Positions 3,767-13,278 of a stretch of DNA of 41,468 bases are shown here, piece after piece (the first letter of the stretch is position 1; each line of letters starts with the position of its first letter). The notes below the pieces were generated by a model. The model did no database searches, was not told the origin of the DNA, and saw only the letters and a list, made by a program, of their open reading frames with translations. A program made the position numbers and the translations under genes. The stretch is from Candidatus Gaiellasilicea maunaloa (lineage in GTDB: Bacteria; Actinomycetota; Thermoleophilia; Gaiellales; Gaiellaceae), in NCBI GenBank assembly GCA_024330215.1, contig JANDLU010000024.1, forward strand, positions 1-41,468. The letters run 5' to 3'.

Positions 3767-4741
3767 TCATACCGGCACGGGCGTCTGCTCGACCGCCTCC
3801 CGCACGAGCTCGTCGGCGGTCAGGCCGGCGGAGCGAGCCTCCGGCGCGAGGATCAGGCGATGGCTGAGCACGGGGACGGCGATCGCCTTGACGTCGTCCG
3901 GCAACACGTAGTCGCGACCCGCCGAGAGGGCCCTCGCCTTCGCCACGCGCAGGAGCGCGATCCCCGAGCGCGGGCTGGCGCCGAGCGCGAGCCGGGAGCT
4001 GCCACGCGTATGCCGCAGCAGCGCGACGACGTAGCGATTCACGCTCTCCTCGACGAAGATCGAGCGGGCCTCGTCGATCGTGGCCAGCACCTCTTCGGCC
4101 GTTGCGACCGGGCGGAGGGTCTCGAGGGGCGGCGCGGTCGTCTGCTCGGCGAGCATCCGCGCCTCGTCGGCGAGCGGCGGATAGCCGAGCGAGAGGCGCA
4201 TCGTGAACCGGTCGAGCTGGGCCTCGGGGAGCGGATAGGTGCCCTCGTACTCGATCGGGTTCTGCGTCGCGAGCACCATGAACGGGCGCTCGAGCGGATA
4301 GCTCTCGCCGTCGATCGTGACCTGGATCTCCTGCATCGCCTCGAGCAGCGCAGACTGGGTCTTCGGCGAGGCCCGGTTGATCTCGTCCACGAGCAGGACG
4401 TTCGCGAAGACGGGGCCGGCACGGAACTCGAACGCGTTCGCGCGTTGGTTGAAGACGTTGACGCCGGTCACGTCCGAGGGGAGCAGATCCGGGGTGAACT
4501 GCAGGCGCGAGAACTCGAGATCGACAGAGCGGGCCAGCGCCTTCGCGAGCATCGTCTTGCCGACGCCGGGAAAGTCCTCGACGATCAAGTGTCCCTCGGC
4601 GACGAGACAGAGCACGCAGAGCCGCAGCGTCTCCTCGGGGGCATGGACGACGACGGCGATGTTGGCCGCGATCCGGTCGAGCGTCTCGGCGGTCGAGGCC
4701 CGGCCGGAGGGCTCGCCGGCCGGATCCCTACGCGCTTCCAC
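3767..4741 (-). CDS. MoxR family AAA+ ATPase
   Basis: This is a 324-aa cytoplasmic AAA+ ATPase. Walker A is EDFPGVGKT (the actinobacterial MoxR variant with an acidic residue before the P-loop), Walker B is VLLVDEINRASPKTQ, sensor 1 is LATQNP, and a conserved EYEGTYPLPEAQLDRF motif follows. The GTG start at 4741 is preceded by AGGAGG at a 6-nt distance, and its first 14 nt overlap the end of coaBC. MoxR ATPases act as chaperones, often for VWA-containing proteins, which fits the DUF58 gene next in line. The overlap with coaBC makes it the distal part of the mihF-gmk-rpoZ-coaBC transcript. Confidence 0.93.
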   Translation of the reverse strand: MEARRDPAGEPSGRASTAETLDRIAANIAVVVHAPEETLRLCVLCLVAEGHLIVEDFPGVGKTMLAKALARSVDLEFSRLQFTPDLLPSDVTGVNVFNQRANAFEFRAGPVFANVLLVDEINRASPKTQSALLEAMQEIQVTIDGESYPLERPFMVLATQNPIEYEGTYPLPEAQLDRFTMRLSLGYPPLADEARMLAEQTTAPPLETLRPVATAEEVLATIDEARSIFVEESVNRYVVALLRHTRGSSRLALGASPRSGIALLRVAKARALSAGRDYVLPDDVKAIAVPVLSHRLILAPEARSAGLTADELVREAVEQTPVPV

Positions 4742-5972
4742 TGCGGTCCTCCTGCTTGGACTGCTCGAGCAGGCGCTCGACCTCGTCGAGGACGGCTGCC
4801 GCGATCAGCGGCTTCGGGGCGCGCGGAACCGCGCGCTCGCCGGCGCGCGTGATCAGGACGACCTCGTTCTCGTCGGCATCGAATCCGGTCCCCTCGCGGC
4901 TCACGTCGTTGTAGACGACGAGATCGAGGTTCTTGTCGTGGAGCATCGCCCGCTTGCGGTCGAGCCCGGCGGCACCCGTCTCCGCGCCGAAGCCGACGAG
5001 CACCTGACCGTTACGCTCGCGAGCACCGAGGCCGGCGAGCACGTCCGCGGTCGGCTCGAGCACGACCTTCCAGGTCACGGAGTCCTTCGGGCGCTTCGCC
5101 GCCCACGGCTCGACCGGACGGTAGTCGGCGACGGCGGCCGCCATCACGACCACGTCCGCCGCGGCGCTGCGGACATGCGTCTCGCGCTCGACGTCGGCTG
5201 CCGTCGGTGTGTTCACGATCTGGACCCCGTCGGGAGGATCGACGGTCAGATTGGCCGCGAGGAGCGTTACCTTCGCTCCTCGCCGCCTCGCCTCGGCGGC
5301 CAGGGCGACGCCCATCCTCCCGGACGAGCGGTTCCCGAGGAAGCGGACGGAGTCGAGCGGCTCGCGTGTCCCGCCGGCGGTCACGAGCACGTGCTTCCCG
5401 ACGAGCGCGCCACTCACGCCTGACTGCACCGAGTCTTCAGGCGGTCGGGCTTCGAGAGCCGAACCCTCGAGACCTACGAGTGCTTGCGCGACGATCGTCG
5501 CGATCTCGGCCGGCTCGGCCATCCGGCCCGCCCCGACCTCACCCTCGGCGAGCTCGCCCACGCCGGGCTCGACGACGATCGCACCCCGGTCGCGCAGCAC
5601 GTCCACGTTCGCCTGGGTCGCCGGATGCTCCCACATCCGCGTGTTCATCGCCGGGGCGACGACGAGCGGCCCTCGGTGGGCGAGCGCCGCCTCGGTCAAG
5701 ACGTTGTCCGCGAGCCCGTGCGCGAGCTTCGCGAGCGTGTTCGCCGTCAGCGGCGCGATCACGAGCGCGTCGGCGCGCCCGAGATGCGGATACGGATCTG
5801 CGGGCGGCGCGATGCGCGCGAGCGCGTAGAAGGTCTCCGCAGCCACGAAGCGCTCGGCTCCCGGTGTCGGCAGCGGCAGCACCTCGTGCCCGGCGCGGAC
5901 GAGCAGCCGCACGAGCTCGCAGGCCTTGTAGGCCGCGATCCCGCCAGTGATCCCGAGGAGAATCCGCGCCAT
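4728..5972 (-). CDS. coaBC: Bifunctional phosphopantothenoylcysteine decarboxylase/phosphopantothenate-cysteine ligase
   Basis: This 414-aa enzyme carries out two steps of coenzyme A synthesis: cysteine is ligated to 4'-phosphopantothenate (CoaB, C-terminal), and the product is decarboxylated (CoaC, N-terminal, FMN). CoaC shows GITGGIAAYK for flavin binding, His63 in YPHLGRAD and the substrate motif PAMNTRMW with Asn110. CoaB shows VTAGGTREPLDSVRFLGNRS and a later KNLDLVVYND. The ACGD motif that in E. coli carries the reductive cysteine reads AEGE here (Glu143), so that cysteine is absent. The ATG at 5972 lies 48 nt after rpoZ. The order gmk-rpoZ-coaBC is standard for Actinobacteria. Confidence 0.95.
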   Translation of the reverse strand: MARILLGITGGIAAYKACELVRLLVRAGHEVLPLPTPGAERFVAAETFYALARIAPPADPYPHLGRADALVIAPLTANTLAKLAHGLADNVLTEAALAHRGPLVVAPAMNTRMWEHPATQANVDVLRDRGAIVVEPGVGELAEGEVGAGRMAEPAEIATIVAQALVGLEGSALEARPPEDSVQSGVSGALVGKHVLVTAGGTREPLDSVRFLGNRSSGRMGVALAAEARRRGAKVTLLAANLTVDPPDGVQIVNTPTAADVERETHVRSAAADVVVMAAAVADYRPVEPWAAKRPKDSVTWKVVLEPTADVLAGLGARERNGQVLVGFGAETGAAGLDRKRAMLHDKNLDLVVYNDVSREGTGFDADENEVVLITRAGERAVPRAPKPLIAAAVLDEVERLLEQSKQEDRSGSA

Positions 5973-6010
5973 CGCCCCATTGTGCCCGAGACGGGACGGG
6001 GCTCTTCTAG

Positions 6011-6032
6011 AACAAACGCGTCAGCGTTTGTT
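6011..6032 (-). terminator. Perfect hairpin spanning the rpoZ stop codon
   Basis: A 9-bp perfect inverted repeat (AACAAACGC / GCGTTTGTT) surrounds a 4-nt loop that contains the rpoZ TGA. No U-tract follows on the transcript, so it is not a canonical intrinsic terminator. It may trim or stabilise the message between rpoZ and coaBC, or act as a weak terminator. Confidence 0.5.
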
Positions 6033-6269
6033 GTAGGCGTACTTGATCTTGCCCTGGGCGACTTCCTCCAGGGACATCGTCAAGTAGTTCTTCGAGCGCG
6101 ACTCGACGAGCGGCGGCGGCGCTTCCTCGAAGCCCATGCCCTCGCCGAGCTGGTGGTGGTAGTTGTTGATCTGGCGAGCGCGCTTGGCGGAGACGATGAC
6201 GAGCGCATAGCGCGAGTCGACGCCGCCGTTCTCGGTATCCAGCAACTGGTCGATGCGAGGGTGGATCAT
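6021..6269 (-). CDS. rpoZ: RNA polymerase omega subunit
   Basis: This 82-aa protein matches the omega subunit: it starts MIHPRIDQLLD, has SRYALVIVSAKRARQIN and ends in the conserved SLEEVAQGKIKY region. Omega wraps around the beta' C-terminus and helps RNA polymerase assembly. The ATG overlaps the gmk stop (ATGA), so the two genes are probably translationally coupled. Length and position downstream of gmk are typical of Actinobacteria. A perfect hairpin encloses its stop codon. Confidence 0.96.
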   Translation of the reverse strand: MIHPRIDQLLDTENGGVDSRYALVIVSAKRARQINNYHHQLGEGMGFEEAPPPLVESRSKNYLTMSLEEVAQGKIKYAYNKR

Positions 6270-6850
6270 GGTCGGGCCATGGTACCTGCGAGCTGGAGCT
6301 CCCGCTCGACGAGGGCCGCGAGCGCCTCCGTCGCGCGCTCGAGGTTGTCGTTCCGCACCATGTAGCGGAAGCGGTGGGCCTGCTCGAGCTGCCAGCGTGC
6401 GAGCTCGATCCGCTCCCCGATCTCGCCCGAGCTCTCCGTCGCCCGGGCCGCGAGGCGGCGCTCCAGCTCGGGTACGTCGGCGGCGATGAAGAGCGTGACA
6501 CTGCCTTCGACCTGCTCCTGCACGCGCAGCGCACCGTCGATCTCCAGCTCGAGCACGCAGACGCGGCCGTCGTCGGCGATCCGGTCGATCTCGGAGCGAA
6601 GCGTGCCGTAGCGGTGGCCGGAGACGTACTCGACTGCCTCGAGAAACTCGCCCGCCTCGATCCGGTGCACGAACTCCTCCTCTGTGAGGAACAGGTAGTC
6701 GCGCCGATCCTCCTCGTTCGGACGCTGCGCCCGGGTGGTGGCGGAAACGGCCACCTCGAGCTCGGGCAGCCGGTCGAGCAGCTGCTTGATCAGTGTCCCC
6801 TTGCCGGCTCCCGAGGGGCCGGTGATCACGAAGACGGGCGTTCTCGACAA
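6266..6850 (-). CDS. gmk: Guanylate kinase
   Basis: This 194-aa enzyme phosphorylates GMP to GDP with ATP. The P-loop GPSGAGKGT lies at residues 11-19, and the GMP-binding region has SATTRAQRPNEEDRRDYLFL and YGTLRSE; RNDN near the end is also typical. The start is TTG at 6850, giving the expected MSRTPVFVITGPSG beginning; no better start or clear Shine-Dalgarno is visible. The TTG sits in the middle of a perfect 10-bp inverted repeat (6839-6860), which could limit initiation. The gene overlaps rpoZ by 4 nt. Confidence 0.96.
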   Translation of the reverse strand: MSRTPVFVITGPSGAGKGTLIKQLLDRLPELEVAVSATTRAQRPNEEDRRDYLFLTEEEFVHRIEAGEFLEAVEYVSGHRYGTLRSEIDRIADDGRVCVLELEIDGALRVQEQVEGSVTLFIAADVPELERRLAARATESSGEIGERIELARWQLEQAHRFRYMVRNDNLERATEALAALVERELQLAGTMARP

Positions 6851-6860
6851 GTCGAGAACG
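6839..6860 (-). promoter_or_regulatory. Perfect palindrome enclosing the gmk start codon
   Basis: CGTTCTCGAC and its exact reverse complement GTCGAGAACG are separated by only 2 nt. The TTG start codon of gmk lies at the centre. As RNA it is a 10-bp stem with a very tight loop; as DNA it is a 22-bp dyad that a dimeric regulator could bind. Either would control gmk and the coupled rpoZ. It does not match the actinobacterial LexA box, whose half sites face the other way. Confidence 0.6.
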
Positions 6861-6913
6861 CTAGAGGAACCGGCGAGGCGGCAAGGCCGACCGGACCGCC
6901 GACGACACTTGCC

Positions 6914-6940
6914 TAGAGATTCTCGGCACGAGAATCTCTA
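6914..6940 (-). terminator. 12-bp perfect hairpin at the mihF stop codon
   Basis: TAGAGATTCTCG and CGAGAATCTCTA flank a 3-nt loop, and the first three bases of the arm are the mihF stop codon TAG. The stem is strong but the following sequence (GGCAAGTG) is not U-rich. It may protect the 3' end of a processed mihF message or attenuate read-through into gmk, 63 nt further on. Confidence 0.55.
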
Positions 6941-7267
6941 TCTGTTGAAGAGGCCGATGAGCTCGGCCCGCTGGCGCTCGGAGAGGCCGCCCACCGTCTT
7001 CGACTGGCTGATCCGGCACTGATTCAGAAGTCTCGCGGCCTTGACCCGCCCGAACTTCGGCACTGCCATCAGCATGTCGAAGACCTTCGCTGTCGAGACG
7101 TACTCGGGCGGGTCGAGCAGGATCGACTCGATCTGAGCCTCGCCGTCCTTGAGATCCTTCTTCAGCCTGGCGCGCCTGACGCGGATGTCGTTCGCCCGTT
7201 TCAGAGCTTCCATCCGCTGGTCGAGCGACCGCAGAGGAGCCTGGGCCTGCATCTTGGTCGTCACCAT
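6938..7267 (-). CDS. mihF: Actinobacterial integration host factor (mIHF)
   Basis: This 109-aa protein matches the mIHF family, a small nucleoid-associated DNA-binding protein of Actinobacteria not related in sequence to E. coli IHF. Diagnostic parts are LKRANDIRVRRARLKKDLKDG, the run ILLDPPEYVSTAKVFDMLMA and VPKFGRVKAARLLNQCRIS, followed by KTVGGLSERQRAEL. The last two form the helix-two-turn-helix that contacts DNA. The start ATG at 7267 lies only 9 nt downstream of a good -10 box, so its message is nearly leaderless. It heads the mihF-gmk-rpoZ-coaBC run. Confidence 0.94.
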   Translation of the reverse strand: MVTTKMQAQAPLRSLDQRMEALKRANDIRVRRARLKKDLKDGEAQIESILLDPPEYVSTAKVFDMLMAVPKFGRVKAARLLNQCRISQSKTVGGLSERQRAELIGLFNR

Positions 7268-7276
7268 GAGCGCGGG

Positions 7277-7304
7277 ATACTACCAGCCCCGCCGTTGCGG
7301 TCAA
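7277..7304 (-). promoter_or_regulatory. Promoter for mihF-gmk-rpoZ-coaBC
   Basis: On the minus strand TTGACC (7304-7299) and TAGTAT (7282-7277) are separated by 16 nt, close to the housekeeping sigma consensus. The ATG of mihF begins 9 nt after the -10 box, so the expected transcript start leaves a leader of only a few bases. It lies in the 63-nt gap after pyrD and separates the pyr operon from the mihF operon. Confidence 0.65.
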
Positions 7305-9038: not shown

Positions 9039-12066
<3,028 letters not shown>

Positions 12067-12072
12067 CGCGGT

Positions 12073-12230
12073 GCGTCTCCTGATGACGTTGTCGCGTCGG
12101 TCGCGTCCGCAAAGCGAGCGAGACAAGGACGCAGGGAGCGCCCGTCCTGGTGGCACGGGCGCGACCGAGGCCGCCGGATCGCGACGTCTTTGCGGACACG
12201 AGCGTCCCGGAGGGCGTCGTCAGGAGGCGC
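12073..12230 (-). promoter_or_regulatory. Long stem-loop between carA and carB hiding the carB ribosome binding site
   Basis: The carA-carB spacer is 153 nt, unusually long in an operon where other genes overlap. Its two ends pair: 12215-12230 with 12073-12088 (14 of 16 positions), then 12188-12197 with 12105-12114 (10 of 10). A further 8-bp hairpin (12138-12145 with 12155-12162) lies in the loop. The outer arm on the carB side contains AGGAG (12081-12077), the carB Shine-Dalgarno, while the carA side includes the carA stop codon. Translation of the end of carA could open the stem and release carB. Confidence 0.65.
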
Positions 12231-13278
12231 ACTTGACCTCGTCGAGCCAGCGCTCCAGGATCGGCCAGCCGTCGTGCGGGCCTGGTCCGGCCTCCGGGTG
12301 GAACTGGGCCGAGCGCGCCCGCAGCTCGGGGAAGTCGAAGCCCTCGACGGTTCCGTCGTAGAGCGAGACGTGCGTCGCCTCCCGCGCATCGGTCGGGGCG
12401 ACCGCGAAGCCGTGGTTCTGGCTCGTCACGAGCACACGGCCGGTCGTCCGCTCGAGCACCGGGTGGTTGGCGCCGCGATGGCCGAAGGGAAGCTTGAAGG
12501 TGTCGTGCCCGGTCGCGAGCCCGAGGAGCTGGTGACCGAGGCAGATCCCGAGGATCGGCACTCGCCCGAGCAGCTCCTCGACCGTGCGCACCTCCTCGCG
12601 CAGCGGCTCCGGGTCGCCCGGGCCGTTCGAGAGCACGACGGCATCGTGCTCCGCGAGCTCGTCCGCGCCTGTTGTGTAGGGGTACACCTCCACACGTGCC
12701 CCGGCGGCCGCCAATCGGCGCAGAATCGAGCGCTTGCAGCCGTAGTCCACAACCGCCACCGTCACTCTGGCTTCGCCAGAGTGGTTGGAGAAGAGATACT
12801 GCTCCTTGGTCGAGACTTGGGCGACCAGCGAGCGGCCGTCCATTCTCGGCTGCGCGTGCACGGCGGCCAACGCCTCCTCCTCACCGAGGTCCCCGGCAAC
12901 GGCTACCGCTCGCATGGCGCCGGCGTCGCGAAGCCGCAGCACGAGCGAGCGCGTGTCGATGCCCGTGATCCCGACGATCCCGCGCTCGGCGAGCCAAGCC
13001 GTCCATTCCGGCCCGCGAGCCTCGCGCATCAGAACCGCCTTCGCGTGGGCGCCGGCCGACTCGGAGCGCGACGCGGAAACCCCGTAGTTGCCGATCATCG
13101 GCGCCGTGAAGCAGACGAGCTGCTCGGCGTAGCTCGGATCCGTGACCGTCTCCTGGTACCCGGTCATCGCGGTCGTGAAGACCGCCTCGCCGAACGCGAT
13201 TCCCTCGGCACCGACCGCCTCGCCGCGGAAAACGGTGCCGTCCTCGAGAGCCAAGTAACAGTCTGCTACTTCGCTCAT
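12220..13278 (-). CDS. carA: Carbamoyl-phosphate synthase small subunit (glutaminase)
   Basis: This 352-aa subunit hydrolyses glutamine and feeds ammonia to CarB. The N-terminal domain has FGEAVFTTAMTGYQETVTDP, and the class I amidotransferase domain has the nucleophile Cys246 in GICLGHQ and the pair His327/Glu329 in FHPE. The ATG at 13278 overlaps the pyrC stop (ATGA); in-frame starts further upstream would run through pyrC. Length is a little below the E. coli protein (382) but all domains are present. The last codons pair with the carB ribosome binding site region. Confidence 0.96.
   Translation of the reverse strand: MSEVADCYLALEDGTVFRGEAVGAEGIAFGEAVFTTAMTGYQETVTDPSYAEQLVCFTAPMIGNYGVSASRSESAGAHAKAVLMREARGPEWTAWLAERGIVGITGIDTRSLVLRLRDAGAMRAVAVAGDLGEEEALAAVHAQPRMDGRSLVAQVSTKEQYLFSNHSGEARVTVAVVDYGCKRSILRRLAAAGARVEVYPYTTGADELAEHDAVVLSNGPGDPEPLREEVRTVEELLGRVPILGICLGHQLLGLATGHDTFKLPFGHRGANHPVLERTTGRVLVTSQNHGFAVAPTDAREATHVSLYDGTVEGFDFPELRARSAQFHPEAGPGPHDGWPILERWLDEVKCAS

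Follow-up and report, generated by a model that had tools for sequence, protein, structure and literature searches.

A perfect palindrome over the gmk start codon and a predicted leaderless-type gmk promoter in Candidatus Gaiellasilicea maunaloa

Introduction

Hairpins that occlude start codons are known as a general kind of element. The locus described here resembles them in that a stable stem includes the start codon of gmk, and differs from them in that the predicted transcription start comes after the 5' arm of the stem, which would restrict folding to a read-through RNA. It was found in a contig of 41,468 nt (JANDLU010000024.1, assembly GCA_024330215.1) from Candidatus Gaiellasilicea maunaloa, a member of the order Gaiellales in the class Thermoleophilia; this whole stretch of DNA is referred to below as the window.

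The minus-strand gene order at the locus is mihF, gmk, rpoZ and coaBC (4728-5972; Table 1). The order mihF, gmk, rpoZ is shared with Mycobacterium tuberculosis, in which, according to PMC6155035, a deletion of mihF was polar on gmk and rpoZ, both of which had to be supplied. A transcription start identified there for M. tuberculosis mihF has a -10 motif similar to that found here. In the present genome the 87-nt spacer that separates mihF from gmk carries two dyads and, by prediction, a promoter for gmk.

Leaderless genes of Actinobacteria carry a TANNNT box about 12 nt before the start (PMC3160421 and PMC3898074), and in mycobacteria leaderless translation proceeds from ATG and GTG only, not from TTG (PMC4633059). 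The gmk gene studied here is like these genes in the letters and spacing of its box, in its high-GC actinobacterial host and, by reading, in having no Shine-Dalgarno-like stretch just ahead of the start. It is unlike them in that it starts with TTG, against the mycobacterial rule (PMC4633059), and in that this start lies under a perfect dyad.

Table 1 Features of the mihF-gmk-rpoZ locus and of the window copy of the repeat family
Feature	Position	Strand	Description or basis
mihF promoter-like site	7277..7304	-	TTGACC, 16 nt, TAGTAT; ends 9 nt before mihF ATG
mihF, actinobacterial integration host factor	6938..7267	-	NF041260, 77.7 bits, cut-off 60
Second perfect dyad	6914..6940	-	12-bp arms, 3-nt loop; begins with mihF stop TAG 6938-6940; no T-run
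Third spacer hairpin, predicted on read-through RNA	6880..6913	-	GGCAAG...CUUGCC; fold of 6800-6945
TANNNT box TAGCGT, predicted gmk -10 element	6858..6863	-	7 nt before TTG; boxes of relatives, own-genome spacing peak
Perfect 24-bp dyad	6838..6861	.	11-bp arms, 2-nt centre; minus-strand letters GCGTTCTCGAC-TT-GTCGAGAACGC
gmk TTG start codon, at dyad centre	6848..6850	-	Reading frame; alignment with starts of relatives
gmk, guanylate kinase	6266..6850	-	TIGR03263, 175.1 bits, cut-off 160.45
rpoZ, RNA polymerase omega subunit	6021..6269	-	Family match; start overlaps gmk stop by 4 nt
Hairpin around rpoZ stop	6007..6036	-	TGA in loop; arms 92% complementary over 13 nt
Window copy of repeat family	12046-12252 by model; folded 12060-12232	-	E 3.6e-15 with model from 14 copies

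Results and discussion

Dyad geometry and the gmk start codon

A sequence-only reading of the locus had placed an inverted repeat with 10-bp arms and a 2-nt centre at 6839-6860 and the gmk TTG at its middle. Both placements are exact, and perfect pairing extends by one pair on each side; the dyad centre (6849.5) is 0.5 nt off the middle base of the TTG, which is the first start codon offered by the minus-strand gmk frame. Among 12 relatives with an in-frame start (ATG, GTG or TTG) behind a TANNNT box, 11 have the start in the same column as our TTG and the twelfth (G051) has it one codon earlier, with columns extrapolated without gaps from tblastn matches, and this agreement supports the TTG as the true gmk start. 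The next in-frame candidate, GTG 6827-6829, was rejected by reading, as a start there would remove part of the strand that precedes the P-loop, and no box lies ahead of it.

The window contains six perfect dyads with arms of at least 10 bp and loops of at most 12 nt, against a mean of 2.7 and a maximum of 6 in 30 first-order Markov copies, and three with arms of at least 11 bp and loops of at most 3 nt, against 0.4 and a maximum of 2. One of these three strong dyads (867-893; 13-bp arms, 1-nt centre, perfect) lies within a called gene frame. With the gmk regions of relatives as background, the chance that a particular start codon has an equally good dyad centred within 2.5 nt of it is p ~0.0007, which comes to about 2% for all 27 called genes of the window. 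The gmk-start dyad is unusual, though by itself not compelling.

A predicted leaderless-type gmk promoter

Homologues of gmk were found in 107 of the 129 genomes of the order, and the mihF-gmk junction was compared in 102 genomes, our own included; G018, G031, G048 and G124 were left out due to gmk matches that were broken, late-starting or near a contig end, and G049 due to the lack of mihF on its locus. Of the 102 gaps between the two genes, 69 measure up to 20 nt, one measures 21-29 nt and 32 measure at least 30 nt. A TANNNT box lies 6-9 nt before an in-frame gmk start in 13 of these 32 wide-gap genomes, including ours, and in none of the 70 with a smaller gap; all 13 have a gap of at least 36 nt. 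Ten control motifs reached the in-frame placement in 0-4 genomes. Three more genomes (G087, G096 and G097) have the box before a short leader open reading frame in another frame, and the third frame gave none. In these 13 of 32 genomes gmk thus appears, from box and spacing, to have a leaderless-type promoter of its own, which is a firmer result than the dyad.

The spacing recurs elsewhere in the same genome. Over 237 kb (the window plus 20 further stretches) with 158 called genes, TANNNT lies 6-10 nt before 20 of 113 ATG and 11 of 165 GTG candidate codons, against 4 of 193 CTG, 1 of 162 ATC and 5 of 279 GTC comparison codons; the gene calls are rough (stop-to-stop frames of 150 codons or more, chosen by codon-position G+C) and the starts are candidates rather than annotated. 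Given this enrichment before ATG and GTG, promoters of the leaderless type appear to be in use in this genome. For TTG, with a box before 2 of 44 codons and gmk itself as one of the two, an enrichment is not clear.

We consider it probable that gmk has its own promoter, with TAGCGT as the predicted -10 box. A comparable promoter-like site precedes mihF and ends 9 nt short of its ATG. The position of this box would put the transcription start at the start codon, and the mRNA would have no leader or, possibly, one of two or three bases. The gmk start is TTG, whereas leaderless translation of the mycobacterial type starts from ATG or GTG, and a leaderless UUG start, if true, would break the rule found in mycobacteria. 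One relative, G075, likewise has a box (TAGGCT) 7 nt before a TTG.

Two further arrangements were observed at the junction. The out-of-frame boxes of G097, G087 and G096 (loci L025, L108 and L110) lie 8 nt before the ATG of a 12-codon open reading frame between mihF and gmk, whose TGA overlaps the gmk GTG by reading (GTGA); a leaderless leader peptide coupled to gmk is possible there. At L013, L016 and L019, mihF and gmk overlap or nearly touch, and the sole upstream start in the gmk frame is, by reading, a TTG within the end of mihF, right after an in-frame TGA.

Conservation and copies of the dyad

The dyad itself is absent from all 101 other mihF-gmk junctions of the order, contrary to the conservation that the sequence-only reading had made a check of its proposal. 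None of them has a perfect inverted repeat with arms longer than 7 bp (loop at most 6 nt, -25 to +28 of the aligned gmk start), and their closest 24-base match to the dyad has 9 mismatches. Since gmk was not found in G064, the only other genome of the genus, this comparison is one without a same-genus member. Among the genomes examined the dyad is peculiar to this one. The second check, for the same dyad elsewhere in the genome, gave no other promoter copy: with at most 2 mismatches, the pattern TTCTCGAC-NN-GTCGAGAA has one further genome match, the palindrome TCCTCGACGTGTCGAGGA at 2 mismatches, and a control pattern has none. TCCTCGACGTGTCGAGGA sits within a 597-codon frame, presumably a histidine kinase from its motifs.

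These results weigh against an operator function of the dyad, in which a dimeric repressor bound to it would block the gmk promoter. Its size, its perfect symmetry and its position over the -10 box and start site are what such an operator would have. The genome offers no second site with at most 2 mismatches save the one in a coding frame, the relatives have no counterpart before their gmk, and no classical dimeric regulator is among the six neighbouring proteins examined, which comprise enzymes, omega and mIHF. With symmetry and position as its support, a single-copy operator is unlikely.

The same absences favour a reading in which the palindrome has no function and arose on the gmk promoter by chance or mutation, for example by template-switch correction of a near-palindrome. 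This genome is rich in perfect dyads (28 in the 237 kb with arms of at least 10 bp and loops of at most 10 nt, against 8-20 in five simulated sets), of which 15 lie inside called open frames and 13 outside, and an equally good start-centred dyad is expected about once per 1400 genes, which amounts to a few per whole genome. Set against this are the two perfect dyads of 11 and 12 bp within 103 nt, which share TTCTCG/CGAGAA, and a two-dyad spacer of a width missing from 70 of the 102 junctions. Moreover, the next best start-centred dyad (p ~0.007; 9 of 12 pairs by our own count) belongs to G075, which is the other TTG-start genome among the 13 with a box. A functionless palindrome is about as likely as the hairpin on read-through RNA that we set out below, and the operator is unlikely. 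On present evidence the dyad is a single palindrome that is not conserved, and of modest interest.

Partial start-centred dyads also occur in G072 and G074 (p 0.07 each) and at a locus of the class outside the order (L172, 0.063, same score). Symmetry was scored over the 13 genomes of the order and three leaderless-type starts among 40 class genomes outside it, these 40 being part of about 50 or more gmk matches listed and one of the three starts (L169) being doubtful, with a 4-nt gap. The combined Fisher p is 0.0099 with our own genome and 0.11 for the 15 other leaderless-type starts, whose mean score is 4.33 against 3.17-4.20 at 20 shifted positions. As a recurring theme, start-centred symmetry is suggested by G075 and overall not established. 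A literature search for a palindrome over gmk returned no prior description among the matches listed, as judged from titles and abstract openings.

A hairpin on read-through RNA

Folded as RNA, the dyad gives a hairpin of -15.1 kcal/mol whose loop, CUUG, contains the start codon. The dyad overlaps the last four bases of the TAGCGT box, the spacer, the likely transcription start, the start codon and the next codons. The stem over the start, which the sequence-only reading had proposed as a block to initiation, is stable, though it would be confined to mihF read-through RNA, since an RNA from the predicted gmk promoter does not contain the 5' arm, and its opening cost is not exceptional. Opening the gmk start is computed to take 19.4 kcal/mol on read-through RNA and 0.4 on an RNA starting at the TTG. 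The difference between the two is the largest of 13 genomes; the read-through cost is the third, with the 12 relatives, none of which has the perfect dyad, at 13.5-22.0. Local stability at the gmk start (-16.1) falls barely within what 27 other leaderless-like starts in the genome show (-16.2 to -1.9). The fold of the spacer plus its flanks (6800-6945) is unusually stable, at -71.9 kcal/mol (z -4.8 relative to shuffled sequences). In these folding models the dyad sharpens the contrast between the two RNAs, yet is unnecessary for occlusion in such G+C-rich sequence.

Our preferred account, which joins the predicted gmk promoter with this hairpin, is as follows. Transcription of gmk would start at its own promoter, and this transcript would have an open start. 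The dyad, if active, would act on RNA: transcripts reading through from mihF would carry both arms, and their gmk start would be folded into the hairpin. A joint effect on GMP kinase and omega, also foreseen in the earlier reading, is plausible because gmk and rpoZ overlap by 4 nt; through this putative coupling the gmk promoter would account for most of the synthesis of both, and mihF read-through for little of it. We offer the account as a whole tentatively. Against it stand the missing dyad at 101 junctions, the third place of the read-through cost, the TTG start and the symmetry p of 0.11. Its strong form, a promoter-choice insulator in which a gene is translated from its own leaderless-type UUG transcript and not from read-through RNA, is rather doubtful; if true, it would mean that two mRNAs of one gene differ in translatability. 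If the read-through hairpin works, a very small device would make a nucleotide kinase and the omega subunit of RNA polymerase independent of the upstream mihF transcript, and leaderless UUG initiation would become testable in Thermoleophilia.

Other hairpins of the locus

The second perfect dyad, at the mihF stop, has the sequence TTCTCG/CGAGAA in common with the gmk-start dyad, and a fold of the whole mihF-gmk spacer retains both hairpins. An antiterminator-like pairing of the two dyads through these letters was rejected, as it yields 6-7 pairs by eye against 11-12 within each hairpin. Of the parts of an intrinsic terminator, the mihF-stop dyad has the stem but no T-run; no terminator-like site was called on the minus strand between 5900 and 7500. 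G065, a genome of another genus, shows a matching arrangement at the mihF stop (TAG first, 12-bp arms, 3-nt loop, TTCTCG core), and by reading a purine-rich stretch and the gmk GTG follow soon after the hairpin. Perfect arms of at least 8 bp within 60 nt of the mihF stop occur only in our genome and in G065 among the 32 wide-gap genomes. Because a T-run is absent and the gmk stretch and GTG of G065 follow the hairpin, a terminator and a 3'-end or intercistronic hairpin are equally likely. With at most 3 mismatches the pattern of the mihF-stop dyad occurs at 28 further places in the genome (two at 2 mismatches, the rest at 3), against 6 for a reversed control pattern, and a weak family around this dyad is possible.

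Downstream, the rpoZ stop lies in a hairpin also at L005 and, by its sequence, at L029. In our genome CACAAT follows this hairpin 6 nt before the coaBC ATG (5972-6036), and GGCACAAT or GGCATCAT recurs 6-7 nt before coaBC in several relatives among the matches listed. The CACAAT site is perhaps another leaderless-type promoter.

A structured repeat family

Counting palindromes also brought up a repeat family of about 170 nt that forms one long imperfect hairpin and looks more interesting, and more deserving of study, than the gmk-start dyad. An apical hairpin, bounded by the constant blocks GTCCTCAGTCGC and CTCCCTGCGTCC, varies in its letters while its pairing is kept: in 14 aligned copies, 8 of its 10 pairs are changed on both sides and 96.4% of cells are paired. 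Across the whole element 17 of 27 predicted pairs have changes on both sides, and the covariation score is 0.433 (shuffles, 0.134; slid partners, 0.046-0.097), a value favoured by the derivation of the structure from the same alignment. Two copies fold with z -5.5 and -6.7, and the window copy with z -4.3.

Exact matches to the repeat pattern number 14 in our genome (L204-L217, two of them also in L193 and L201) and none for the reversed control pattern. The repeat is present in 69 of the 129 genomes of the order, our own included; a slightly looser pattern, run on 396 genomes from across the phylum, hit six, all of them among the 38 of this class. One copy (L005) sits in the mihF-gmk gap of G067. 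Rfam gave no match at the gathering score in any of the 8 loci searched out of the 14 of our genome, and around the window copy a single match, mir-1842, far below it (19.9 of 81 bits). A literature search on the repeat family gave no description among the matches listed.

In the outer 3' arm of the window copy AGGAG is paired with CTCCT at the preceding stop codon, and because of this predicted pairing the element may control translation. The window copy fills the gap before a large gene that we take to be carB. The presumed carB frame extends without a stop as far as a GTG at 12156 within the element (12050-12156), and a CTG precedes PRRADLRS, presumably its first conserved residues, so that carB may start at this CTG or another rare codon.
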